This document shows, in pieces, positions 32,741-64,000 of a DNA stretch of 64,000 nt. The stretch covers positions 1 to 64,000 of the forward strand of contig JAZGTN010000060.1 of the NCBI GenBank assembly GCA_037783415.1, written 5' to 3'. Within the stretch, counting starts at the first letter, position 1; every line of letters begins with the position of its first letter. Source of the DNA: Leptasterias polaris (Eukaryota; Echinodermata; Asteroidea; Forcipulatida; Asteriidae). The translations under genes were made by a program, and so were the position numbers. Below the pieces are notes generated by a model. The model did no database searches. It was not told the origin of the DNA and was given only the letters and a program-made list of their open reading frames with translations.

Positions 32741-32815
32741 ACATAGATAGCTCAGTTAGTAGAGCGCCGGCACACTAATCTGAAGGTCGCGGGTTCAACT
32801 CCCGCTCTTATTCTA
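32741..32815 (+). mobile_element. tRNA-related SINE head (class I tRNA-like)
   Basis: An A-box-like word (TAGCTCAGTTAGTAGAGC, from 32748) and a B-box-like word (GGTTCAACTCC, 32792-32802) are spaced as in a tRNA. A T-stem (GCGGG/CCCGC) and a D-stem (GCTC/GAGC) are present, but the anticodon stem does not pair well, so this is probably a SINE head and not a working tRNA. A second related copy lies near 37640. Both are followed by a TCTACCC word. Confidence 0.55.
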
Positions 32816-40500: not shown

Positions 40501-43500
40501 CTCAGTACTTTCCCCGAGTTCTGTGAAAAAAAATCCACAGGCAAATCACTCCGGTGGGATTCGAACCCAAGACCTAATAATAATCTTACCACGATGATCA
40601 GGAAGAGCAAGCATGTAATGATTTGCAGAATAGTCAACATCCCCATCACAATCAGGTAGGGCAAGAAGAAGTACCGTTGCAGCTGGAGCGGAAACAAAAA
40701 AGAAAAAATACAAAAACTGAACTCAAGAAAGAAAAACACAAACACTGAACTCAAGATATGACTCAGCATTGGTTTAATAGATATAAAAATGATAATCAGT
40801 TCATGTACATTTATGATTATGGGAATAAAAGAGTGGCGACGAGTTCTTAAACGGTCGTTTAAAACTGTGCGATAAAGGCCACGACCCTGCAAGGTTTTAA
40901 ACGGCCGTTTAAGAACGAGTCACTACTCTTTTATTCCCATTCATAAATGCCCTTTTGTTAAAAAAGTGAAAGAATAAGGAAAATCGGTGGTAAATTCCCA
41001 TTCATAAATGCCCTTTTGTTAAAAAAGTGAAAGAATAAGGAAAATCGGTGGTAAAAAAAGACAATCTGTGACAATCTGTTTGTTTAGCGAATTTTCGAAG
41101 TTTGTACATTTTTAAAAACTTTTGTAAAATTCTGTTTTGTGCGCGTTGGGTTGTGTGTTCGCACGGATTGGCACTTGTGGGGTCCTGACAACAATGGAAC
41201 AATGGACCCCACAAGGTCATTTCAATAGGAACAATTGGACCCCACAAGGGAATTCTTCAGAAAAGGGAATAATAGAACAACAATAGCAGTACCCCACAAA
41301 CCGGATCTGTAAGGGTGGGTGTACGCGCGTGTACAAAAAGATTACAAGCGGGTACTAATAGCTATGTATTGCGTTCCGCGTAAGTAAATTGGCGTAAATG
41401 AGTATGCGGGCCCAACACGCGAAGCCAGCCGGTCTTAAACAGCTCCAGCTATGTCTTTATCAGCCGTTTAAACACCCCCACGTGACGTGCTCTCCACCAA
41501 TAGGAATAGCGAAACTGTCTGGGGTATTTATGAATATTTATTAACATGTTCTTGTACGATACCATCAGACCACAGACTCTATTACACAAATTGCAGAATT
41601 TAAATGTTAATCCACAACTTTCCCTTTGGATTAATGACTTTTTACTCCAACGGTCACAGAGGGTAAGAGTAAACGGTGTTAGTTCTGACATTACACATTT
41701 AAGTACAGGAGTCCCCCAAGGATGTGTTCTATCGCCACTCTTGTTCTCCTTATTCACAAGTGACTTTAAGGTACAAAGCGACTCATGTATTTTGATTAAA
41801 TATGCTGATGATACTGTCTTGACAGGACTGATAAGTGACAATGATGAACTGGATTATAGAACCAATATTGATCTGTTTGTTAACTGGTGTGTTGAAAATC
41901 ACTTAATTATTAATGTGTCTAAAACTAAAGAAATGGTCTTTAATTTTAAAAGAACCAAACAAACCATGTCACCTGTTAAACTTAACGATGTGTCTGTAGA
42001 AGTAGTAGATGAATATAAGTACCTTGGTACTGTGGTTGATAGTCAGCTAAACTGGAATTCCAACACCACCAAAGTCTACAAGAAAGCTAACCAACGGTTA
42101 CACTTTGTAAGGAAACTGAAATCTTTTAATGTTAATACCCGGGTTTTAAAACTGTTTTACCAGAGCACAATTCAATCTGTTATAACTTTTTGTTCGATCA
42201 CTTGGTTTAATTCTCTAACTATTAGCAATCGTAAGAAACTAGAACGTATTGTGAAGCATGCTGGAAGGATTATAGGTGAGGACATTGATGGTCTTCAGAA
42301 GTTGGTCCATAATAGTCTCATGTGTAAGTTTAGTTCCATTATGTCTGACAATACACATCCTCTCAACTCGTCTGTGGTTACAAATAAATCCGGTAGAATT
42401 CGTCAGTTAAGCCTTAAAACGAATAGGTTTAGGAACTCTTTTTTACCTCATGCCATTCACAATTTTAACTGTAAATTTTGTAGATAATAGACCTTTGTCA
42501 TGGTGCAGCCATCTTGATTTCTCCCATTCATGTTGGTGTGGCCAGACCGGGACTGGGTGGATGAGTAGTCTGGTTCCTTTTTGTACACTGTAGATTGGCA
42601 TTCATTGCTGTTGTTGGATGTAGGGAGCATGTCCAATAATGACTTTTTATTTTTTTGTGTAATTTCTTTGTTGGTTTTTACTGTGTTTACTGTGTTACTG
42701 TGTTTATTTGCCAATTTGTTTATTTTTAATATTTTTAATATTTTTACGTACTTTTACTGCTGTACAAAGGATAGCAAATTTCATGTATAACAATACATGA
42801 CGAATAAATTAAATTGAATTGAATTGAATTGAATTGAATTGATAGCGCTTGTACATATCTATGATTACTTATTAACATGTTTTTAGGACACGTTTACTAA
42901 GTTCAGACATGATATTTGGTCCTTGGAAAGAAGTAGGGCAATTTTTTGTTAGCACAAGGATTGATTCATTTGTTCATATATTGTGGCGTGTTGTGGCCGA
43001 GCGGATAAGAGCACCGAACTCAAGCTCTTGTTTCTGATCAGCAGAGTGTGGGTTCGAATCCCAGTCGTGACACGTGTGTCTTTAAGCAAGACACTTAACC
43101 ACATGCTTCGTCCTTCGGATGGGACGTTAAGCCGTAGGTCCCGTGTGTTGTGTAATGCACGTAAAAGAACCCAGTGCACTTATCGTAAAGAGAAGGGGTT
43201 CGCCCCGGTGTTCCTGGTTTGATTGGCTGCATATTGCGCCACAGCACCTTGTAAACCATTACATGGTGCTATGCAAAGGAATAGGTCTCACACTTCAACA
43301 CGTAACTCCACTTACCGTGTAGGAAAAATACTGAGCGCTTTGAGACACCCATCGGGAGTATAAAGCGCTATATAAGAACTGCGTATTATTATTATTATTA
43401 TTATTATTATATAATATAACATGTACAATGGTGCAGGGTTTAATAGACATTTCTGGCTATTTAATCACAGTTTTTCTGATTTTTCTTGGATATCAGACTA

Positions 43501-46500
43501 AAGTAGGTAGAATATCATGCTGTTAAAGTTCTTGAGCTATGAGAGCCACTAATATAGCACCTTGTTAAGGTTCACAAGGTGCTGCAATGCACTCAGCAGC
43601 CACTGCCATAAAACACCGGGGCAAACCTCTGTGTGCTGTGTTCTTTTATGTGCATTACTACACTACATAACACTGTACAGGACCAAGGGATTGGATCTCA
43701 TCTAATTTAAAAAGCAAAAATCGAAATTTTGTTTTGTTTCAGAGATTTGGTTGATAACATGGGAAACATTGAAAACATTCACTTCAGGTCATGACCTTTA
43801 CTTTGACCTTTTTGGTTGGGTGGAAGTACATATAGGTCAAAGCTTGCGACCTTTATGTATAGCACCACACCAAGTAAGATTCCCATATCAACCAATGCTA
43901 AATGCTAAACATTCAAAAGCACACCAAATAATATTTAAGTCTCTCAGCCTCTTGAACATTTTCAAACCAAATAAAATACAGGCATATTTGCTGACAATCA
44001 AACATTTCAAGTACAGAGGCAGTTCAACTTTTGAGGTTATGCGCATCCAAAATGATTTCAAACAACCCTGATCGAGTGCACAAACCAGACTCCTTCTTGG
44101 ATAAGGGATCTACAAGCGTGAGTAAAATAGGGCAATTTCTAGAGGGCTAGTGTGTGTACCCAATATGCCCCAGGTTAAAGGTCAACAATTCCCAGGGGCA
44201 AAACGAAAGGACCATTTTCAAAAGTTCTTAAAAGACATGACCTTCAAATCTGATTTGCAGAAACAAAGTTGTTGGTTTACGTTTAATTCATGAAGCTCGG
44301 CGCATTATTTTCTTACAGGTTAGTGTAGTGCACGATTTACGGTCGCAAACTGATTGTTACCAAAATGTTTTAATGCTGTTTGTTGTTGCCAACTTGAAAC
44401 AAAAGTCCAATGCATAAGTTTATCTCCATGACGTTCATTGGACTACTCATTAATTTTTTTGTTTGGATAAGCGTAAAGATTATCAAAACAATCTCAAGAG
44501 CCAAATTTCCCTCGAGAGGTTTTGATAAAGAAGCGCATACTAATGGCCATGTTTACCTCCACCCATACGCAATTCATCATATATTGCAAATCTAATGCAT
44601 AGATTTAGAGGGAATGTATACGCTTGGTACATGTAATCACTCTTAAAATTAATGGCAATAAAAACTTACTTTGTTAGAAACTTGTACAACAGCTTTGGAT
44701 AGTACATGTAGTTTAAAGCATTTTGAGAATCATTTCCCTTCGAAGTAATGTGGTTATGGAAACCAGTTTTTATCCCCCCTAAAATTTGAATCTGAGAAAC
44801 ATTACTGTCAGTAAGGTTTCTCAGATTGTTTATTCCATTTACGGATTATTCTTCCCGCATGGACATAACCGCTCCGGATTTTCGGCGATTTCTCAAAAAA
44901 CGCGACCACCTTTTGAAATGAAATTTTCACAGGTTAGTTTTATTGTATGCATCTACATTTATATGGGATTAAAACAATCGAACGATTAAAAAAAACCAAA
45001 GGTATACTTTGCCTTTAAGCGAATGAGAAACAGAGGTTGGGCTAGACTTTGTGCGCAGCTGATCTTAAAGAGGGGCTCCAAGGTCAAATGAGGTCATTTT
45101 CATTCAGAAGGCATAGTTTAATCCGTTGACATTTAAAACCACAGTGGATGATAATGAATGGTCCGACAGTAGGAGGGTTGACTATGTACTGTGTAGATGC
45201 ATGCACGACAGTGATGCACAACTATTGCAGGCTGGCATTTATCTATCATTCATCTATCATCCTTGGATGATTTTTGATTGGTCAGACAGTCGGAGGGTTA
45301 AAATTGCTTCAAACTTACTCTGTAGACTCCAACAATGACCAGTATGGTAACGAGGGTTAGCAGAGCGTACAGACCGATGTCCACACAGCTAGCGATGTAC
45401 AGAACTCGGGCCTCCATATTCATCGCCATATTCATATGAAGGGAAGTCAAGTTGAAAGCCTGTTGAATCATGTCTGCTGATTTAACTTTTAATTAAAGAG
45501 AGACATCGAAAAAACTGGATTAACAATGTTTGGGGAAGCTAATCTCCAAAGCAAAAAAAAATAAATTACAATTAGTTTTTGAATATATTTTTAAAAGGGG
45601 GACTATCATTCTTAATCTCTTGATCATAGCAGATCTGTGGCTGCACATGGAATTATGCACACTATTATTATCCAGGGCTAGAGTTAAGGGGAAACAATTA
45701 ACAGGACCACAGGGCTTGTACTTCAGTATGATTACTGGACCGGAATTTTTTTCAAAAGACCAGGGCCCAATGCCCCGTATTTTTGACCGCGTGAGGGCGC
45801 CCTGAAAACTATTTCTATCACTTCCGGGGGTATAACTTTTAAAAGCGATTATCGTCTGCAGCTAGCTAGCTAGCTGTGTACAGTTAGTTTTAACATCGGC
45901 GTCAGTCACTTCCTGGTCACTTCTGTGTGCGGTATAGTTTTTTGTCGCTTTTAAGGCGGATTCCCACTGAAGAATCGGTTATTCGGCTCAAACGTTGGCT
46001 AGCTCAGCTTGAAGAAGAGGAGCATCAACTTCTGGCAATAAGTGAATAAAACAGAGCTTGTAAAAAGGTAAACGAACAGTTCACGTTCACTGACTGTCCA
46101 TCCATATCCATCCATGCAGGATCCATTTGTAACATATCTTGGATTATCCTAAACTACATCGTGTGTTGGGTCTGTCCTTTCTCTATGGTGTGTGTGTGAG
46201 TAGGTAACCACATTCAAACCGGGGACCTATAACAAAAGAGGACAATAGGTCCACGGTTGCTATCACAAAGGAAAGCATTGTGGTCCATGGTTGCTATCAC
46301 AAAGAGTGACTTGAACAAAGGAGGGTCCACGATTGCAGGCTGTTAGTTAGTGTTACACACTTGTGTGTGTGGGGTACTGCCTTGTCCTTATATTCAATAA
46401 CAAAATGATACAGAAATCTCTCCAATAAATACGCGAGACCCTACATGAACTCTACAACTCAATTAATTCAGTTCAGGAGTAGGGTTTAGTATGTGAAAGA

Positions 46501-49500
46501 TTAAACACTAAAAAATATTGATATTAAGAAGACATGTCACTGATTGTCAGAATAATTAATAATACACTGATAATATAGTGTTATTGTTAGTGTTAGGGCT
46601 GAGGGTTATATTTCATGCTGGGAGGTTATATGGCAGTATCTGAGTAGAATGTGTGCATTTAATACTAGTACTAGTTTGGCAGGGTCTTCACTAGTGTAGT
46701 ACTCTAACTCTGGGTAGTACTTACAAGTAGTCTGTATAGTAAAGAAAATGCATTGGGGCAGTATTCCCAGTACAGTAATCAGTTTATTGGAACAGCCATT
46801 TATAATGTCTAAAAAGGTAAAACGAGGCTGTGCCTTCCAGAAGACTGGCAGGGACACTAAACATGTTTGGATTCTAATTAAACATTCTTGATGAATCTTT
46901 TTGTTTCCTTTCAGAGTGAATGATTACATCAAAGGTGAAGAATTGCTCATTGACCAAATAGCAAGGGGAATGCCCATATTTTTCCACCGCTTGAGGGCAC
47001 TTTAATTTACTTGTGACATGTTTGGATAGTTTCGAGATGCGATACTGTTGTGTGCCTTTGTGCCCAAATAAAACAACAATTAATAAGAATATAAAGTTCT
47101 ATCGCATTCCAAAAGATAAAAAGTTGAGAAAGTGCTACGACATCGCTATAAGGAACAAACATTTGAAGGTAGATTCACCACATACTAGAATTTGTAGCCA
47201 ACATTTTGAAGGTGGGAAGAGATTGAACAACACAGTCATTCCGACCATTTTTCCATGGACAAAGGTAAACAAACCAAGAAAACTACCCACTGTTAGACTA
47301 TTATCTTTAAAGGCAGATACAGCAAAAACAATCCAAGTTTCTCTGTCGGATTTTGTGAAATCCACTGACATCGGAGTCCAAACCGAGAGCCAACAATGTG
47401 AGCGTGGCGACGAGATTGCCCGGTTGAAGAAAGAACTCAGTGAATGCCATATGAATTTAATGAAAACTCAATCAGAACTTGACCATAATCGATATGTTAG
47501 CGTTAAGAGTAAGTTTTGCATTGAAAAATTTCAAGACTGTGACAGCGAAATTTGTTTCTACACTGGTTTTCCAGATTTTGACAGATTTGCAATTTGCTTT
47601 GAATACTTAAAGCCATCTGTCAAATGCTTGCCAACATGTACATCTTTGGCCAGACAGAAACTGACTCCCGTCAACCAGTTTTTCTTGGTGATGTGCAGAC
47701 TGCGACTTGGTCTTCTCGAGAATGATTTGGCTGAAAGGTTTGGCATCAGCCAATCATCTGTATCCAAAATATTCTCAGTGTGGATTAATATGATGTACTT
47801 TGAGTTAAAGGAGATTGACATATGGCCTTCTCGAGAACGCATCAATGAAACAATGCCAGAATGTTTCAAGACATCCTACCGCTCAACGAGAATAATCATT
47901 GATGCTACAGAAATCCAAATGGAGAAACCATCTGCACCAGACATGCAGTCTGTAACATTCTCTAACTACAAAAGCCGCAACACAGTGAAAGTTCTCATTG
48001 GCATTACCCCAAGTGGAGCAGTGTCTTTTGTTTCTGATCTCTTTACAGGTGAGCATGACTTTTGAAATTAATTTGTTTAAATTAAATATGCATTGGCCGA
48101 ACTTTGGCCTAATTAAAATTGGATTTAAAACATAAATGTGATGTGATATATATATTAGAATTCAATCTCCCTTCCCTTGTAGGTACTATAAATGTATGAC
48201 TTTTGTAATTTTACGGTTGATTTACTTGGAGACACATCCATCTCAGCTCACCATTCACTGTATGTCTAAAAGAAAACTGTGTTCAAAATGGAAACATAAC
48301 GCCCCACTCGTTTCTCCAACTTTTAGTCCTTTCAAGGGGAAATTTTGCACAGCAAGTGTTTTACTTTTGTTTGCACATTTAATAGCAAATTTGGCTTTGC
48401 AATATGAGGGAAATTGTTCACTCTTTTTAAGCAATTTACTACATAAAAATGTATTGTTTGTATTTGTGATGCAGGTTCAGTGTCCGATAAAGAGCTAACA
48501 TCTTTATCTAACCTCCCAAGTAAACTGGAACCTGGTGATGGAGTCATGGCTGATAAGGGGTTTGACATCCAAGATTTGTTGGCGCCAGTTGGAGCAACAC
48601 TGAACATTCCACCCTTTATGGAAGGAGGCCAGCAAATGTCTGTGCAAAATGTCATAAAAACGCGTAACATTGCATCTCTACGTATACACATTGAGAGATG
48701 CATGGAACAAATCAAGAACTTTCATATCTTTGACAGGCCAATTCAAGTATCCACTTGCAGTATTGCAAATCAAATTGTCTTTATTTGTGCATTACTTACA
48801 AATTTCAGAAGGCCATTGCTAGTTTAAAGGGTTATTTGGTGAAAATTATTTGGTGTACTGGTTGAAAATTTAGTGTACTGGTTGCAAATGTTTAAATTCC
48901 ATTTATTATGCTTGACAACCGGCGGCCTGTTCTGTGAGATAAAAACAGGAAGTCATTTTCAAAACGACATAATTGTACAAAAACAAAACCCATGCTTTCA
49001 TTAAGAAGATCAAAAGTTTAATTTTGCCACTCTGACATCACATAAGTTCTCATGAATATCCAAATGTGCATTAAGAAAAATTGCACAAATTTCTATAGTG
49101 TCAAAACACCCTCAGATTTAATTGAAAAAGGTAGTCAGTTGTACAGTAATGTCAATATGAATATTATTTATATAACGTACCCAGTGGACTGGGCTTAAAG
49201 GATATCAATCTACATGTATTAAATATTCACTCTCGTCATTCCAGCTTGTCGAAGAGGTAAGGGTGCGTGTGGACACTGGACCATTTTATTCGTTGAAAGT
49301 AGGTTGTGGATTACATTGTGTGCATCCTTTTTTAAACAAGTTGGCATTACAAGAGTGAACCTTTAATATTATTGTTCATTATTTATTTTAAGACTAATAA
49401 TATTGATTAAAATTGATTTAAAAACCATCAAATGACAAGGATCTATGTGTGAGTTATATCAAACAAATACTGAATGCTTTTCATTTATAACAATGTAACA

Positions 49501-52500
49501 GAATGTATTCCTTTGGTGAAATTTGGACTTTTCTATTTCACCTTGTCATAATATTTCACCTTGAGGATAATACCTGACCAGCTTGTCGAGCATTAATTTC
49601 AATAAATATGTGTAATGGCTAGATGATAAATTATCATTTTCAAATTTAAGTTGTTCCAGTGTACAGCAGATAATAAGTTATTTAAAATATATATATTTAT
49701 TAATAAATTACAATGTGACTTTTCAGTTTATACCTGTCTGCATTTGCACAGAAAATATTTATTAATGTACACTACTTTACATATTCATAAATAAACAACT
49801 TCAGGATCATACCTGACCCTAAATGCAGCTTTTGTCAAGCATTACTTTCATTATACGTGTTGTACATTGATCAGATTTCCTACTCTTCAATGTTTACATT
49901 TATTTTCTTGGTACATTTATATTGAAAACGTTCAGGACAAAGTGGATAGCCAAGCTTCACACGCCCTGTTAGAATTTCAGGCACAACACTTTCAATGTAG
50001 AATGCCTTCAGTTTGGGAAAGATTATTCGTCTCCATTTGTTCTCATCAAACAGTATGCGTTCAACATAAATGTCACTGCCCTGAGGTGTTTGTGTGTACA
50101 TAATAAAATCGCACCACTCTCTCTTTGTTACTGCCATCTGACATTGTATTTGATAGTAATAAATATGGTTTGGTTTAAGCTTAAATGCACCGGTGTTGTT
50201 TCTATAAAGAGGAAAGGATGAGCCACGCTTAATTGCTAGTTCTGATATTGTAAGATTAGATGCAGGGCTCTTTATTTCTGCAATTCCTTCTTTAGGTTGA
50301 CTAGCTGGATCATCAACAATCCGATCCACACTAGCTCCCAGCCATGAATGATCTGGCATTAAAGCTAATCCTGTCTCCTTAACTGAAATGACTGGGTGGC
50401 CATTCATTTTCATGTACTCAACATATGCTTCAGCAGCCTTGGGTTCAAATTCTATTCCATGTTTACAAGCCTTTGGAACATTTGTTTGTTTTTCATATCC
50501 CATGATTTTTCTCACTATATTATCTGGGGGTGTTGTTTTTCTTTGGTTGATAATGGTACCAACAACAGATGCTGTTACTTTACCCTGTCTATGTTTGAAC
50601 CAGTTTTCATTGCCTGATTGTCCCATGGTAGCCTGCTCTATATGCTCTAATTCTTTAGATGTCAGTCGCTGCGTTTTCTCATAATGTACACACCTTTCAT
50701 TGAATTCTTCATCCAGAGACATCTTTTCAGATGGAGAAAGTGATGCTTTCAGCTGATGATGATTTGGTAGTATACCTTGTAATGTAGAAGTGCTAGTCAC
50801 AGATGTGGTTTGCTGGGCTTGTGTTGAAACCTCAGACTGAGGTACACTAGAGTTAGGTACATCTCTGCTGGTAATGAATGAATCCTGCTGCTTAGACTGA
50901 GGTGTGCTGTAGTTATGATCACAGTGAATAGCAGATAATGATGGTGCAAATGGTAAAACATGGAGAAATGCACATGGCTTGCCTTGTGATTCCAAGCTCT
51001 CCAGTTTTTGACGCAGTTTGAACACCCTATCACGGTTGTTTTGCCGGAGACTTATGGGTCTTGGATCAACCTGCCTGATTTTGGGTTTTCTTTTGTTTCG
51101 CTTAATAGGGTCATGTTTCAGGAACAGCGCTTCATGGATTGGGAAGTTATTCACTTTTCGTTTTCTGGAAGGTAAATGCCATTGCTGAGGAAGTGATGTA
51201 CATGATACATTGGTGGTATTAGTGCTGTTTGAAGAATTGGTACATGCATACAAAAATGCTGCGACATGACAGCAAATGCCTGAAAGTCCTGCAGGGCATG
51301 AGCAATATGCAGAGTGTATGCATAGAGTTGATTGCCACAATGAAATATAGGTTGTATATTGTGTGCTTTTCTTCATGGATGGAAGCACAGTGGCTTTGAG
51401 GTAAATGAATTCAGATTCCGATGACATGGGATGGTACTTAACTTCTGTTACATGTCCAGAACAATACAGTCGATACCCTTTTCCAAACTGCTTGTCACAT
51501 CCCTTTGTCTTCTCCTGTAGATGTGGTTGGTTTACGAGAAAGTGCCACATATTTCCAAAACACAATCCTGTAGGAACCTGTCAATAAAATAATTAAAACA
51601 TATCAAGGAATATTGAAAAATGTACTTGCACAAGACCTGAGACTGGTAAAACAAGTACATGTATACACAGTTTTTGGTCTAAGCTCATAGAACAAAATAA
51701 TATTGTAGTGCTATCTTTTAAAAAAAATTATTCATGAATGCACAATAAATTTCAGGTAAATTCTATATTCAAAGGAATAGTGGCTTGAAAAGACTATCAA
51801 ATTGTGTGTTTGTGTGTTATGTAAAAATATCATGCCCATTGTCATTTAAAAAAGTTTTGGTTGCAGTTAAATAATTATTAGAAACTACTGATCAATGTTA
51901 ATCCAAACCCATTACACTACACCAAACTACTTGTTCTTACTGTATGGGCGTTCCAAATTGTCTTATTTCCAAATGTTTTTCTATAATACTGTCAAACAAT
52001 TGGTGTGATTTCAAGTGCAAGCTCACCTTTGACAAATCACTGGTCCAACCTTCTTCAGGGGGATGATGAATACGGCTGCTAAGTGTCACGGTACTGCTCG
52101 GAAATACCAATTCCCCCCCTGCTTTTTTTTGTTTGAGGTTACTGCCACTGTCTGGGTCAATTAGCAAATCAACATCCAGGCCACCTTTGATGTAATCATT
52201 CACTCTGAAAGGAAACAAAAAGATTCATCAAGAATGTATTAATTAAATCCAAGCATGTTAGTGTCCCTGCCAGTTTCCTTTTGGAAGGCACAGCCTCGTT
52301 TTACCTTTTTAGACATTATAAATGGCTGTTCCAATAAACTGATTACAGTACTGGGAATACTGCCCCCATGCATTTTCTTTACTTTACAGTACTACTTGTA
52401 CTACCCAGAGTACTATACTACACTAGTGAAGACCCTGCCAAACTATGCACACATTCTACTCAGATACTGCCATATAACCTCCCAGCATGAAATATAACCC

Positions 52501-55500
52501 TCATCCCAGCCTTAACACTAAAATTAGTAACATAACACTATCACTTTATTATTAATTATCCTGACATGTCTTTGCGTATTTAATGGAGAGATTTCGGTAT
52601 CAATTTTCAAAGGACAAGGTAGCTCTTGACATCAGTCTCCCCCCCCCCCCCACACACACAAACGATACAATGAATGATTGTAGTTTATATTACATTATTA
52701 GGATCAACAAGATAGGTTACATGGATGGACAGCCAGTGAACGTGAACTGTTTGTTTACCTTTTTACAAGCTCTGCTTTATTGCCAGATGTTGATGCTCCT
52801 CTTCTGCAAGCCAACCAACGTTTGAGCTGGATAACTGATGCTGCAGTGACGTCTTCAAGCTGTGCTCCTGGGATGTCTTTTTGTGTCATATATAGACGGG
52901 AAGTGGCAAGACTCTCCACCATGGTCAGGCTGCCGTCCAAATCCCGGCAGGAAAGTTTTCTAATTTACAACCGGTCACAGTACGCTCCAATCCAGACACA
53001 AACAATCACATTCACAGCAATCTTAGCAAGGCCTACCAACCAACTCCATGACAACAAAGAGAAAGAGTAAGAAGAGTAAGACTGCTTCAAATACTTCCCC
53101 AGACAATTAACATAAAGACTGGAACACATCACCACCAGACATCATATCCATCACGGACAAAAGACCTTTAAAGGACTAAAAACTATACCGCACACAGAGC
53201 AGAGGTGACAGAACGTCGGTGTTAAAACTGTACACAGCTGCTGAGCAGACGATAATTCGCATTTAAGGTTATACCCCCGGAAGTGATAGAAATATTTTTG
53301 AGGGCGCCCTCACGCGGTCAAAAATACGGGGCATTTCATAGAGCTGCTTGAGCAGAGAATATTGCTTAACTTTTTCTGCTTAGCTGAAATGAGCGGGATA
53401 CCAGTCACACTCGACATGGTAGTTTGGTTGGTTACCTAATTCTGGTAAGCATAATTTTGTTGTGCTTAGCTACTTTTTGTGCTTAAGCAGCTCTATGAAA
53501 TTGGCCCCAGAATCAAAATAAGAAAGACATGAAAAGAACATTATTAAAATGACATCACAGTTTTAATACAGTTTGATGTTGTAGTTGTTGGCTCTTTGTT
53601 GTTGAGAAGAAAAGATTGATCTCATTTGTCTTCAAAATGGGTATTCAGTATTCAACAGAATTGAAAGATATCTATCAGAATCAAAGTCAACACTTGAACA
53701 TCATTTTTTTAAAGATGAATATATTGAAATGAAAAAAGCGAGACCGCTCAACTTGTCCAGTTGTGAGTTTACTGGCCCGACACTAAATCACTAGCCTCAG
53801 CCCTACGGTCTAGTGTCAAATTTGAGCCCTGTAAAAAGTTACTGCACACGTGTGCTCGCCGTCAAATCTCAATATAATCAAAATGGAACCCTATGTTATG
53901 CGACAGCCAGCGATTGAACATTACAATAACTGGGCTAGAAAACATGATTCTATAGTGCAGCCGCAGTCCTACTATGATTGTGATGACAGTCCCCCTCTAA
54001 AGGTTGTAAGATAAAATTACTGAAAGACAATGCAATATTTAAAATTGAAAGTCAAACTATTTGATTATTTTTTTATGAGCTTTGTAAATTTCTTGACTTT
54101 TGAATAAGAGAAATTTGTAAAGACCAGGCATAGAGTTCACATCCAGTGGGAACAAAAACAGGGCAATTTTATTGAGTACATGGTCTGGACTACGTAAATA
54201 TTTTCCCCATTTTGGGGGGGGGGGGGGGTAGACTTTTTAATTCAATAACGATCTTACTGATTTTTCAAAGGGCAAACAACTCAGATTAATCAGCTCACTG
54301 CGGGATTAAAAACCCTTTTCCTGTTACCACTGTGTGATTATTTCCGTCAAAAAGCAAATTTTTTCCTAGCCATTAATATCTTCTTTTGACAATGAAACTC
54401 AGTTTGGACACCCGCATAAAGACATTTTCTCATTGACATATTAACGTATTTTTAATGGGTTGTATTTTGTTTTCTACAGTCATGTTTCTAAATATCAATC
54501 AGACTGTTTAAAAGCTGCTATGTAACGGCCAATCATCGACCCATGCCCTGAAGAGACAGCATCCCGGAGGACCTCATTTTGGCCTGGCTGCATTTACGAC
54601 CAGAATTATTTCATTTCCTTCCTGACAAAACAGCCCGATATCCAAATTCCTTCTAATTCCTCTCACAACAGAAACCCACTTCGACCCAAATCCTTCTGAA
54701 AACACCGGCAGTAGCTTTAAAAACCCAAGTCCTTCTAAGTCCTTCACTTTGGCAAAGAAGATATATTGAAGGATTTGGGCTAGTTAGAACATTGTCAAAC
54801 TTTTGAACTTGAAAGAATTAAAGACTAATCTAGTCTTACAATACATGTATAAAGCGCAAGGATCTACCAATAAAGTAATCAAGGGGCTTGGACACTAGAC
54901 AGAAACATTCTCAATCAGGTTTTTGAAATTTGTGAAAATTATGAGACCAAATTGGATGTATTACCAGATTACCTAATGGTTTACAAGGTGCTGCGGCGCA
55001 TTCAGCAGCCACTGCCAGAAACACCGGGGCAAACCCCTATGGATCGATCTATTATCACTAAGAGTCTTAGTGATAATAGATCGATCCATTAAGCCCCGCC
55101 TCCTTACGAGTTGACCAGTCACAGCCACGAAACCCGATCACCGTTAGTGCAAAGATCACCAAACGGCTCAAATGGTGATCAGATTTCGCGGTTGTGATTG
55201 GTCAATGAGTTAATGGGCGTGGCTTAATGGATCGGTGTATTGTAACTGGGCTCTTTAAGTGAATTACACAAAACACACAGCTTACGGTTTTACGTCCCAT
55301 CCGAAGGATGAAGCAATAATTGTCAAGTTTCTTGCTTTGAAGGACACTAGTGTCACAACCAGGACTTGAGCCCACACTCTGCTGATCACAAACACCAGAG
55401 CTTAAGTCCCCATGCTCTTAACTGCTCGGCCACGACACACCACAAGATCAAAGTCATTCATCACATTTGTAGAGAACCCCATATGCCATACACAGCCTCT

Positions 55501-61181: not shown

Positions 61182-63778
61182 TCACTCCTTCTCTTTTTCC
61201 ATCCTCTGTTTTTTCTCTTTCTGACTGTTCTTCTTCTTCTTCTCTTTCTTGTCTGTTTTCCCTCGTTTCTTCTCTGATGTCTGTTTGGAGCGCTCATTGG
61301 ACGTGCTGGTGTCTGCTGCTGATGATGAGTCAGTCATGGCCTTGCTGGCATGCTCATGGAATTTGATGAAGCAAGTTCCAGGACATAGGTTAAGCATGCA
61401 CTGCTTGCATCCGAATCTAGTTGTCTTTATTCGTCCTGATGCAGTGACCCCGTTGTGACTGATGCACCATCTACATCTTTTGGGGTAGAGCCCTGGCATC
61501 TTTGACGAGATGTGGCCACCTATATTGTGATGAGCGACGGGTAAAGATGCCTTGCTCTGACGGTGGCTTGAGCCGTCGGCATAGCCATCAATAAAGTCCA
61601 TGGCCAAAGACAGGACGAATTGGCTGTGTGTGAGGGGCTTTGATGGTGCTGGCACATCACTGACATCACTGTCCTCAGTTGACTGAGTATCAATGTGGTG
61701 ATGCTGCTTGTAGGCAATATAGGCATTGACCCTTGCAATATCCAGTAGAAAGTAGAGGATTTTTTTCCACCAATACTGAGACTTTCTTGAACACGTGTGA
61801 TAGGCACGGAGTTGGTCGCTTCTGTCTACTCCGCCCATGTACTTGGTGTAGTCACACACCTGAGGATGAAAAAAAAGGAAATTTTTTAAAAACTTCCAAT
61901 ATAAATACAGCACACAATTCAATGTAAAGATAGCATCTGATAAAAAAAAATTACAAGGAAAATACATACCTGAGGGGGGGCAGCAATTGTCTTGGTTACT
62001 CTTCGGGCAGTGATGTCATCTGGTATCTTGCGGTTGAGGGTGTGGACATCCGGGTCACGCCAGCCTTGATGTGATGTAGACAGTGTCAGCATGACCCGGC
62101 TGTCCTTCCACGCTGTTACCACCATCTGGCCATTCTGCCGGCTATAGAAAGTGCCACGAGGAACTTTGGTCATGTTTTTCATGCGCTGTTTGTTTGGATT
62201 TTTGTTGGAGTTGGTTAGATCTTTAGGAAGTCCTCTACTGTTGCTCTTCACTGCGCCGGTGAGGTAGGTTTTTTTTGTTAAGAGCAGTTCAGCGAGTGGC
62301 ACTGATGTATACAGCCTATCTGTATAAATATTGTGGTAGCGCCCAAGATGGTGCTTTGCAACTTTCATGGCTATTGCTGTCATCTTTGTCGGCTTGTTAC
62401 TCCATGGATGGACAATGAAGTTGAGGACGGCACCAGTTATGGACTCGGCAAGAACATAGATTTTGAAACCAGCCCGGATCGGTTTCAGAGGCATGAAGAA
62501 CTTCTTCACTGCTGACTTGAACCCTCGGTACTTGATCATGGCTTCATCGATGGTCAAATTTCGAGCTGCATTATACTTGTGGAGGCATTGCTGCCTCACA
62601 CGCTCCCATATCGGCTCCAGTGGGTAGAGGGGGTGCCTTTTCTTGTATTTGTATTGGTGTGCCTTATCATAGTATGAAGGGTCTTTGTCGGGGTCGTTGC
62701 AAGCAAGATAGGTGTTTATTGTGTTGAACCGGTTCCTGGACATGGTTGAGGAGATGAGATTGTTCCGGAGTCCTGGGTGGGTCGACCAGTAGTTTCTGTA
62801 GTTTGCCTGCTTTATCAGCCCCATCAGAATGTGTATTCCGAACCATGCCCGAATCTCCGCTAGGTTGGTCGTTTTTGTCCCAGCTTCCCTCATCTTTAGG
62901 TTGGTCCACTTAACGATCAGCAGCAGCAAACTCAGGGGAAAAAACTGGAAAAAATATTTGATGGCTGAGCTCGAGCGTGTGAATGATGCACCTAGCGGGT
63001 TTTTCACTATGAACGACCGCACCATCACATTCTGCAAAGATCTTGTCCAGCCATGGTCATCTGGGGGGTAGTTGCGTGCTTGAGCGATGGGAGGCTCTGG
63101 GTCGTTGTCTGACTCCGGCTCTACCACTCTTCTTCTTCTTCTTCTTTTGATATTTTCCTTTGGTGCCAGATGTCTCTTTCTTGTCTTCGGGGCTGGCTCG
63201 GGGATGTCACTGTCATCCTGTTCATCCTCTTCGTCTTTATCGGCCTTGTAGTCTTCTTCATCATCCGAATCAGCGACGTCGGGATCTTCCCCATCTCCAT
63301 CACCCCAATCATCGTGGCAAGGATCATCACCAACATCATGCTCACCATCACTTTCTTCAGCTACATGTAAGTCATCCTCATCATGACTTCCATCAAACCA
63401 GTCACTGCCAACACTGCTGTCAGTCTGCCGTGATGACTCGGCACACTGGTCTTCTGCCATCATTTCTTCTACCGCCTGATCTATATACTCCTCATCACTC
63501 TCAGAGGAGCTGACAACTGCTCTGTATTTTTTCCCAAAGTGGACACCAGCAGCTTTGGCACTCGTGTATACCACACTTCTCAGCTCCTGCTTTTGGGCAT
63601 CAGCCTGACGCCGCAAAAAACCTTCATCTTTCTCCTTTGGTAGAGGTTCTTTTCCCCTTCCTTTCTTTTTGCTCACACCTTTTCTTGGTGTTCCTTTCCC
63701 CATGGCAGATCTTGTGAAAACATAAGACTCCTCTTGAGTTAAAGACTGTTGCAATGCTCTTGCTTCTCTCGATGACAT
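61182..63778 (-). CDS. piggyBac-type transposase, two exons
   Basis: Exon 1 (61970-63778) and exon 2 (61182-61859) join at CTCAG|GTATGT and CATCCTCAG|GTG in phase 0, giving 828 residues. The N-terminus is basic, then strongly acidic (about 95-190, rich in D and E), then a basic patch (RRRRRR). The DDE_Tnp_1_7 core runs from about 235. D411 (NLTIDEAMIKYRGF), D487 (HNIYTDRLYTSVPLAELL) and D615 with D618 (YMGGVDRSDQLRAYH) match the catalytic aspartates of the family. A C-terminal cysteine-rich finger follows (KRCRWCISHNG, FGCKQCMLNLCPGTCF). The tail after it is lysine-rich and partly encoded by the inverted repeat. I chose the ATG at 63778 as the first in-frame start inside the left-hand repeat. 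Further upstream the frame has no supporting family feature. No break is seen. Confidence 0.85.
61248..61314 (+). repeat. 67-bp inverted repeat, left copy
   Basis: CTTGTCTGTTTTCCCTCGTT to GGACGTGCTGGTGTCT. One base differs from the complement of 63803-63869. On the minus strand it encodes part of the transposase tail (STSNERSKQTSEKKRGK). Confidence 0.9.
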
Positions 63779-63802
63779 GATTGCTAAAAGGTTGTCTGAA
63801 GT

Positions 63803-63869
63803 AGACACCAGCACGTCCAATGAGCGCTCCAAACAGACAGCAGAGAAGAAACGAGGGAAAACAGACAAG
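63803..63869 (-). repeat. 67-bp inverted repeat, right copy
   Basis: AGACACCAGCACGTCCAATG to ACAGACAAG, complementary to 61248-61314. It lies just upstream of the chosen transposase start. Confidence 0.9.
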
Positions 63870-64000
63870 TAGGGGAGGAGTAGCAATCTACACTGATATT
63901 TATAGGAAATCAGCACTTAGTTATTACATAATTCTTCATTGATATTAAAAGCAATTCAACTTTCATATTGTTGATACCCATTGACCTATATATCTGACTT
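63870..64000. other. window edge, no gene seen
   Basis: A/T-rich sequence. No exon for the missing 5' end of the host gene could be recognised here. Confidence 0.4.

Follow-up and report, generated by a model that had tools for sequence, protein, structure and literature searches.

Why a eukaryotic cut-and-paste transposon should carry a phage-like YqaJ exonuclease is the question raised by a locus in the sea star Leptasterias polaris. The window, that is, the whole stretch of DNA that we analysed, comprises the first 64,000 nucleotides of contig JAZGTN010000060.1 (here C60) of assembly GCA_037783415.1; genome searches covered the 630-Mb assembly in 334 contigs, and the match counts that they yielded are lower bounds. 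A first-pass annotation, made from the letters alone, had placed an apparently intact ISL2EU-type transposon with two genes at 45772-53332 and had called the role of its nuclease unsolved. It was right in nearly all points, the last of which agrees with Han et al. 2015 (PMC4482050), where the passages on second open reading frames (ORFs) call their functions unknown. We find that the element is a recently mobile ISL2EU (PHIS superfamily) cut-and-paste DNA transposon, a new member of a known group. Three of its features are worth keeping: a SAP exon, long arms that bear part of a gene, and an internal copy of the terminus.

A recently mobile ISL2EU transposon

The element and its immediate surroundings were delimited as follows.

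45772..53332, no strand: whole ISL2EU element, 7561 bp; ends common to copies at other sites, with an empty-site match
45770..45771, no strand: left target site duplication AT, preceded by A
53333..53334, no strand: right target site duplication AT, followed by T
53335..53501, no strand: remainder of a host short inverted-repeat element (miniature inverted-repeat transposable element, MITE) hit by the transposon insertion

The matching ends and AT duplication reported in the first-pass annotation proved exact to the base, with flanks A/AT...AT/T (slashes mark boundaries). DNA searches of the genome found seven copies, the window copy included, with different flanks at all seven sites; the window copy and five others (6/7) share the A/AT/T target with its AT duplication. 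The window copy sits within a common short inverted-repeat element. When its flanks were joined with one AT they matched 42 rows (the best 40 of 1413 candidates were scored), the join being spanned in 40 of the 42, at 86-95% identity and with a left flank of mostly 7-18 bases. This empty site is paralogous, being an uninterrupted copy of the repeat at another locus; the 42 matching rows included no allelic one. The left flank of the C7 copy (L056), when reversed, resembles by eye the repeat flanking the window copy. Because there are seven copies, profile matches with the E-values given below and an empty-site match, the element is not a chance pattern.

Placement in ISL2EU is supported by domain profiles, the A/AT/T target, two convergent genes and near-identical copies, all of which fit the group as described by Han et al. 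2015. Shared with that description (PMC4482050) are the target, a THAP-HTH-DDE ORF, a second ORF encoding YqaJ, and animal hosts; the nearest named relatives of the element's proteins are from hemichordates. The earlier remark that few such elements are described in detail needs correcting to this extent: the same paper reports 25 ISL2EU families, 12 of them potentially active with both ORFs, and the two-gene layout is thus not rare in print. Two measurements depart from the published ones: terminal inverted repeats (TIRs) of 6-259 bp, given as a descriptive range and usually starting GG, compare with arms of ~1.16 kb starting GC here, and a mean length of ~4.84 kb compares with 7.56 kb (PMC4482050). 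The element is largely an ordinary ISL2EU member; less usual are its end repeats, which are long and hold the 5' end of the nuclease gene.

Relative to the window copy, substitutions numbered 7/7563 in C7, 13/7075 in C58 at 0.27 Mb, 27/7496 in C2, 61/7077 in C158, 72/7528 in C58 at 7.97 Mb and 107/2917 in the internally deleted C143. The transposase is open in 3/7 copies (window, C7 and C158) and the nuclease in 4/7 (window, C7, C58 at 0.27 Mb, and C2 with one codon fewer). Both genes are open in the window copy and the near-identical C7 (2/7), which bears out the description of the element as apparently intact and provides material for a direct test of second-ORF function. Of the six other copies, four or more have internal deletions (C58 at 0.27 Mb, C2, C158 and C143). 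Among four junctions inspected, two show a 2-base overlap and one shows none, as read by eye, and the junction in C2 contains a templated repeat.

Short non-autonomous relatives were also recovered. The five with well-set ends (L062-L066) all have the A/AT...AT/T arrangement, while the ends of L067-L075 are approximate, some of them off, and these elements were left out of the target-site count. L063 (C276) and L064 (C193) share flanks and so represent one insertion event, in a duplicated stretch or in two assembly haplotypes.

Two convergent genes encode a transposase and a YqaJ nuclease

The transposase gene occupies the left part of the element.

47037..48048, + strand: transposase exon 1 (THAP, HTH, first catalytic D); open frame, Pfam
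48475..48827, + strand: transposase exon 2 (second D, E), to the stop codon; open frame, Pfam

All three introns of the two genes are GT-AG introns predicted from sequence. Once intron 48049-48474 is removed, the transposase is open over 454 amino acids, with a DDE triad at D289, D364 and E411 and Pfam matches above cut-off to THAP (E=3.5e-13), HTH_Tnp_4 (1.1e-15) and DDE_Tnp_4 (1.4e-42), as expected from the THAP-DDE protein with all catalytic residues that had been proposed. The possibility that the left arm joins SAP to the transposase was ruled out, as the left-arm reading meets stops before the THAP ATG.

The nuclease gene runs in the opposite direction.

52759..52922, - strand: nuclease exon A, lying within the right arm, with the start codon and the greater part of SAP
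52027..52204, - strand: nuclease exon B, its first 23 nt inside the right arm
49880..51577, - strand: nuclease exon C, with a SWIM-like zinc motif and the YqaJ nuclease, to the stop codon

After removal of its two predicted introns this gene is open over 679 amino acids, matching Pfam YqaJ (E=4.3e-18), Viral_alk_exo (3.8e-9) and SAP (1.2e-5; 25.2 bits against a curated cut-off of 23.9). PHROG matches accompany the Pfam matches for the element's proteins. Residues D532, E548 and K550, which we take to be catalytic, are invariant in five aligned sequences (this one and four relatives), and the protein matches the solved exonuclease 3syy (E=1.2e-8) with D, E and K in register.

Of the SAP-SWIM-YqaJ architecture originally proposed, SAP and YqaJ were confirmed by profile, whereas SWIM stands only as a motif: CxCx7CxH was seen by eye at residues 206-218, and the Pfam SWIM profile gave no match in the nuclease of this element. 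Among relatives, that profile reached E=0.15 in 1/5 members of one alignment and, in P0006, which is more distant, a sub-threshold E=0.018. The SAP domain is indeed split by an intron (52205-52758) located inside the right terminal repeat. Its predicted splice is supported by P0003, in which the same junction is read through without interruption, and by the Ptychodera model P0002, which begins in an apparent intron just before the same RVNDYI.

SAP precedes YqaJ in several families

We compared all 129 Pfam SAP matches in the genome (E up to 10) with 85 YqaJ matches. At no fewer than 15 of the 85, a same-strand SAP match lay up to 5 kb upstream; none of the 85 had SAP within 5 kb in any other relation. 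Six of these 15 pairs are copies of the window element, eight belong to other families (C9, C116, C3, C46, C102, C276 twice, and C125; SAP 1.3-1.9 kb upstream) and one, on C176, is weak (E=7.5). The C125 SAP falls below the curated cut-off, yet its sequence is readable there. SAP before YqaJ thus holds for several families, and is not established for all.

Beyond this genome, Pfam found SAP and YqaJ in a single protein in P0005 (Acropora muricata); in P0003 the combination is seen by alignment only, Pfam missing the SAP. P0004 (Dysidea avara) and P0006 (Frankliniella fusca) contain SAP and resemble the N-terminal side of the nuclease, with no YqaJ match on record. SAP is well conserved where seen, and the SAP exon adds a likely DNA-binding part to the YqaJ protein. 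Its earlier characterization as a less noted part of this protein agrees with a term search, in which SAP and SWIM had 0 occurrences each in PMC4482050 and PMC9179366, both of which describe the YqaJ ORF. A literature search combining YqaJ, SWIM, SAP and transposition returned nothing on the subject in titles and the starts of abstracts, a scope outside which Repbase reports fall and which leaves unpublished status unproven.

Weak SAP matches (E=0.77) also occur ~2 kb from related transposase matches at C17:2402175, C18:2568139 and C192:966293, with no YqaJ match listed nearby; these loci are perhaps a family with a different second gene.

The nuclease gene begins inside a long terminal inverted repeat

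The two arms and the elements recognized in the left one are as follows.

45772..46937, + strand: left terminal inverted repeat arm, ~1.17 kb, block-wise homologous to the right arm
52182..53332, - strand: right terminal inverted repeat arm, ~1.15 kb
45819..45827, + strand: CACTTCCGG motif in the left arm, with a mirror copy in the right arm
45965..46067, + strand: remnant of exon A in the left arm, with a disrupted frame and no start region but a retained splice donor
46909..46937, + strand: counterpart of the exon B acceptor in the left arm (TTTCAG/AGTGAATGATTAC), ahead of the transposase ATG

Homology between the two arms comes in blocks and extends over ~1.16 kb. On the right, the arm takes in the nuclease gene from its 5' region and start codon through the SAP exon and the first intron, acceptor included, to the first 23 nt of exon B. 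The left arm contains the outer block, a frame-broken part of exon A, the donor AAG/GTAAAC, pieces of the intron and the acceptor TTTCAG/AG, and is without a ~300 bp stretch whose right-arm counterpart holds the start codon. By exact search, the left-arm donor is present in 5/7 copies and the acceptor in 7/7.

The 14 related short elements bear on the history of the missing stretch. In nine (L067-L075), pieces of it occur close to each end, oppositely oriented, though one end mostly holds just the tip-side half, without the start codon; it lies at one end only in L065 and L066, and at neither in L062-L064. Since short elements have pieces at both ends, the left arm probably lost at least the tip-side part of the stretch.

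The CACTTCCGG motif lies ~50 nt from the tip in 36/42 ends examined. We take it to resemble an ETS-type core-promoter site; its conservation could equally be explained by transposase binding. A literature search on long TIRs containing a first exon gave nothing relevant among the matches listed. The long arms offer a concrete case of terminal repeats that act as ends and probably as promoters.

An internal terminus may record how the arms arose

A further copy of the terminus lies inside the element.

46970..46998, + strand: internal copy of the element terminus including AT, 25/30 alignment columns identical

This degraded copy falls between the left arm, whose inner edge is 32 bp away, and the transposase ATG, 38 bp further on, and is present in 7/7 copies of the element. 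Against the tip without AT it scores 30, a value reached by 0/2000 dinucleotide shuffles of 46938-47036 (maximum 23), 0/200 shuffles of the element interior (maximum 25) and 0/567 unshuffled 99-base segments drawn from the window beyond the element (maximum 20). In a cruder control using the tip with AT, the observed score was 31 and the maxima in 10 window shuffles were 18-27. A genome search with the junction for elements ending at the internal terminus returned only the seven known copies.

Two readings of the internal terminus stand side by side: it may be an ancestral left end, or it may be an inner site to which the transposase binds. One history, which we put forward tentatively and hold to be rather doubtful, is that the ancestral left end was at 46970 and that an inverted copy of the right end, bringing the nuclease promoter with the SAP exon and first intron, was added at the left, where it became the promoter and leader of the transposase; such copying might have proceeded through nuclease-promoted resection-and-copy repair. 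If true, the 5' end of the nuclease gene has become a terminal repeat, and the sequences controlling the two genes are also those to which the transposase has to bind.

A proposed role for the nuclease in gap repair

Taken as a whole, the locus is in our judgement probably an autonomous ISL2EU transposon with mirror-arm transcription and, less surely, nuclease-aided gap repair. By analogy with their families, the THAP and HTH domains would bind the terminal repeats, and the DDE domain would excise the element and insert it at AATT with a 2-bp stagger. The anatomy suggests that each gene starts in, and is transcribed from, its own mirror-image arm, the two converging, with one promoter-plus-first-exon unit serving both: the right arm would encode the SAP exon, and the left arm would form a spliced non-coding leader for the transposase. 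MuDR of maize has a comparable arrangement, with a transposase, a helper gene and promoters in its TIRs (PMC8224964), and the likeness is one of arrangement only, promoter activity in the present arms being what we infer; its transposase and helper are unrelated and its TIRs measure ~200 bp.

The SAP-zinc-YqaJ protein would be a lambda-exonuclease-like enzyme resecting 5'-3', with SAP and the zinc motif anchoring it to DNA of the element or of the break. It could then prepare the donor break for homologous gap repair, by which the element would be copied back and copies gained. Resection for donor gap repair is the least certain step, and on the sequence evidence we rate it a little below even. 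Enzymes of the YqaJ family such as SXT-Exo resect 5' strands and pass long 3' tails to an annealing protein (PMC3118119). lambda-Exo, SXT-Exo and 3syy share the family with the present nuclease and, in 3syy, D, E and K in register; they differ in being enzymes of phages or integrative and conjugative elements, and the first two work beside an annealing protein (PMC3118119), a second gene of that kind not having been seen here. Host recombinases would have to serve as the annealing partner, because no third gene was seen in the element. KolobokE likewise combines a DDE transposase with a lambda-exonuclease-like PD-(D/E)xK nuclease, although it belongs to another superfamily and encodes the nuclease downstream of the transposase domain, and KolobokH encodes a RecQ helicase (PMC9587614); such repeated recruitment would fit a role in break repair. 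The templated repeat at the C2 deletion is of the kind that interrupted gap repair would give.

Several observations weigh against this interpretation. One of the seven copies, C7 (L056), lacks the AT duplication. Pfam SAP was not seen near 70/85 YqaJ matches, an absence left unproven for a domain that is short and possibly intron-split, and the relatives P0001 and P0002 have no SAP on record. In the left arm, the exact donor was not found in C58 at 7.97 Mb or in C143, and the putative leader contains three upstream ATGs. Only one further family, C125, was compared, and there the SAP exon lies outside any long repeat: two stretches (1.3 and 1.7 kb), SAP side against transposase side, gave only short, chance-level inverted matches, and a SAP exon within a long repeat was accordingly rejected as a general ISL2EU trait. 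Internal deletions also occur in nuclease-free DNA transposons, so they do not prove the role, and Spy, a PHIS relative, has a transposase only, the nuclease thus being dispensable for PHIS transposition generally (PMC4482050).

Among other explanations, the strongest is that the YqaJ protein is chiefly a DNA-binding and nuclear-import partner of the transposase, in the manner of the Harbinger Myb-like protein, SAP and the zinc motif binding the ends and nuclease activity being secondary. This would accord with the conservation of SAP, and with the second ORFs of the PIF/Harbinger, Pangu and Nuwa groups, which encode Myb/SANT proteins, that of Harbinger binding both transposase and TIRs (PMC4482050, PMC9179366). 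We consider it unlikely given the invariance of D, E and K in the five aligned sequences and the transposase's own THAP and HTH domains. Still less probable is that the nuclease trims excised ends or target flaps before joining, rather than acting in donor repair. The KolobokP paper does propose that KolobokD, through an unrelated DnaQ-type exonuclease, breaks down intermediates of transposition (PMC9587614), but ends and AT duplications are precise in 6/7 copies here, with no sign of trimming, and YqaJ-family enzymes make long 3' tails (PMC3118119).

That the two genes are separate insertions lying side by side by chance, as the internal terminus between left arm and transposase gene might suggest, is next to negligible and was ruled out by linkage: a transposase match lay within 7 kb of 69 of the 85 YqaJ matches, convergent at 67 and divergent at 2 (none within 7 kb at 16), and in the window copy and the five other longer copies a single pair of ends encloses both genes, at least in part. 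With 67/69 convergent, the genes form one unit, as had been supposed from the outset.

The divergent pairs are at C79:947688 and C79:1702907. Seventeen rows of related transposase frames of 549-551 amino acids were recovered with near-equal score, those on C25, C29, C42, C59, C74 and C85 without a listed YqaJ match; this group is perhaps a transposase-only relative.

Other features of the window

Elsewhere in the window, a reverse transcriptase fragment with an ALKBH8_N-type match, probably a piece of a long interspersed nuclear element, lies at 41534-42487 (+). At 61182-63916 (-), two apparently frameshifted frames match different parts of DDE_Tnp_1_7 together with a transposon zinc finger, and we take them to be a piggyBac-like transposase. 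A tRNA-like match of 32.8 bits at 32745-32808 (+) is perhaps the head of a short interspersed nuclear element or a pseudogene.

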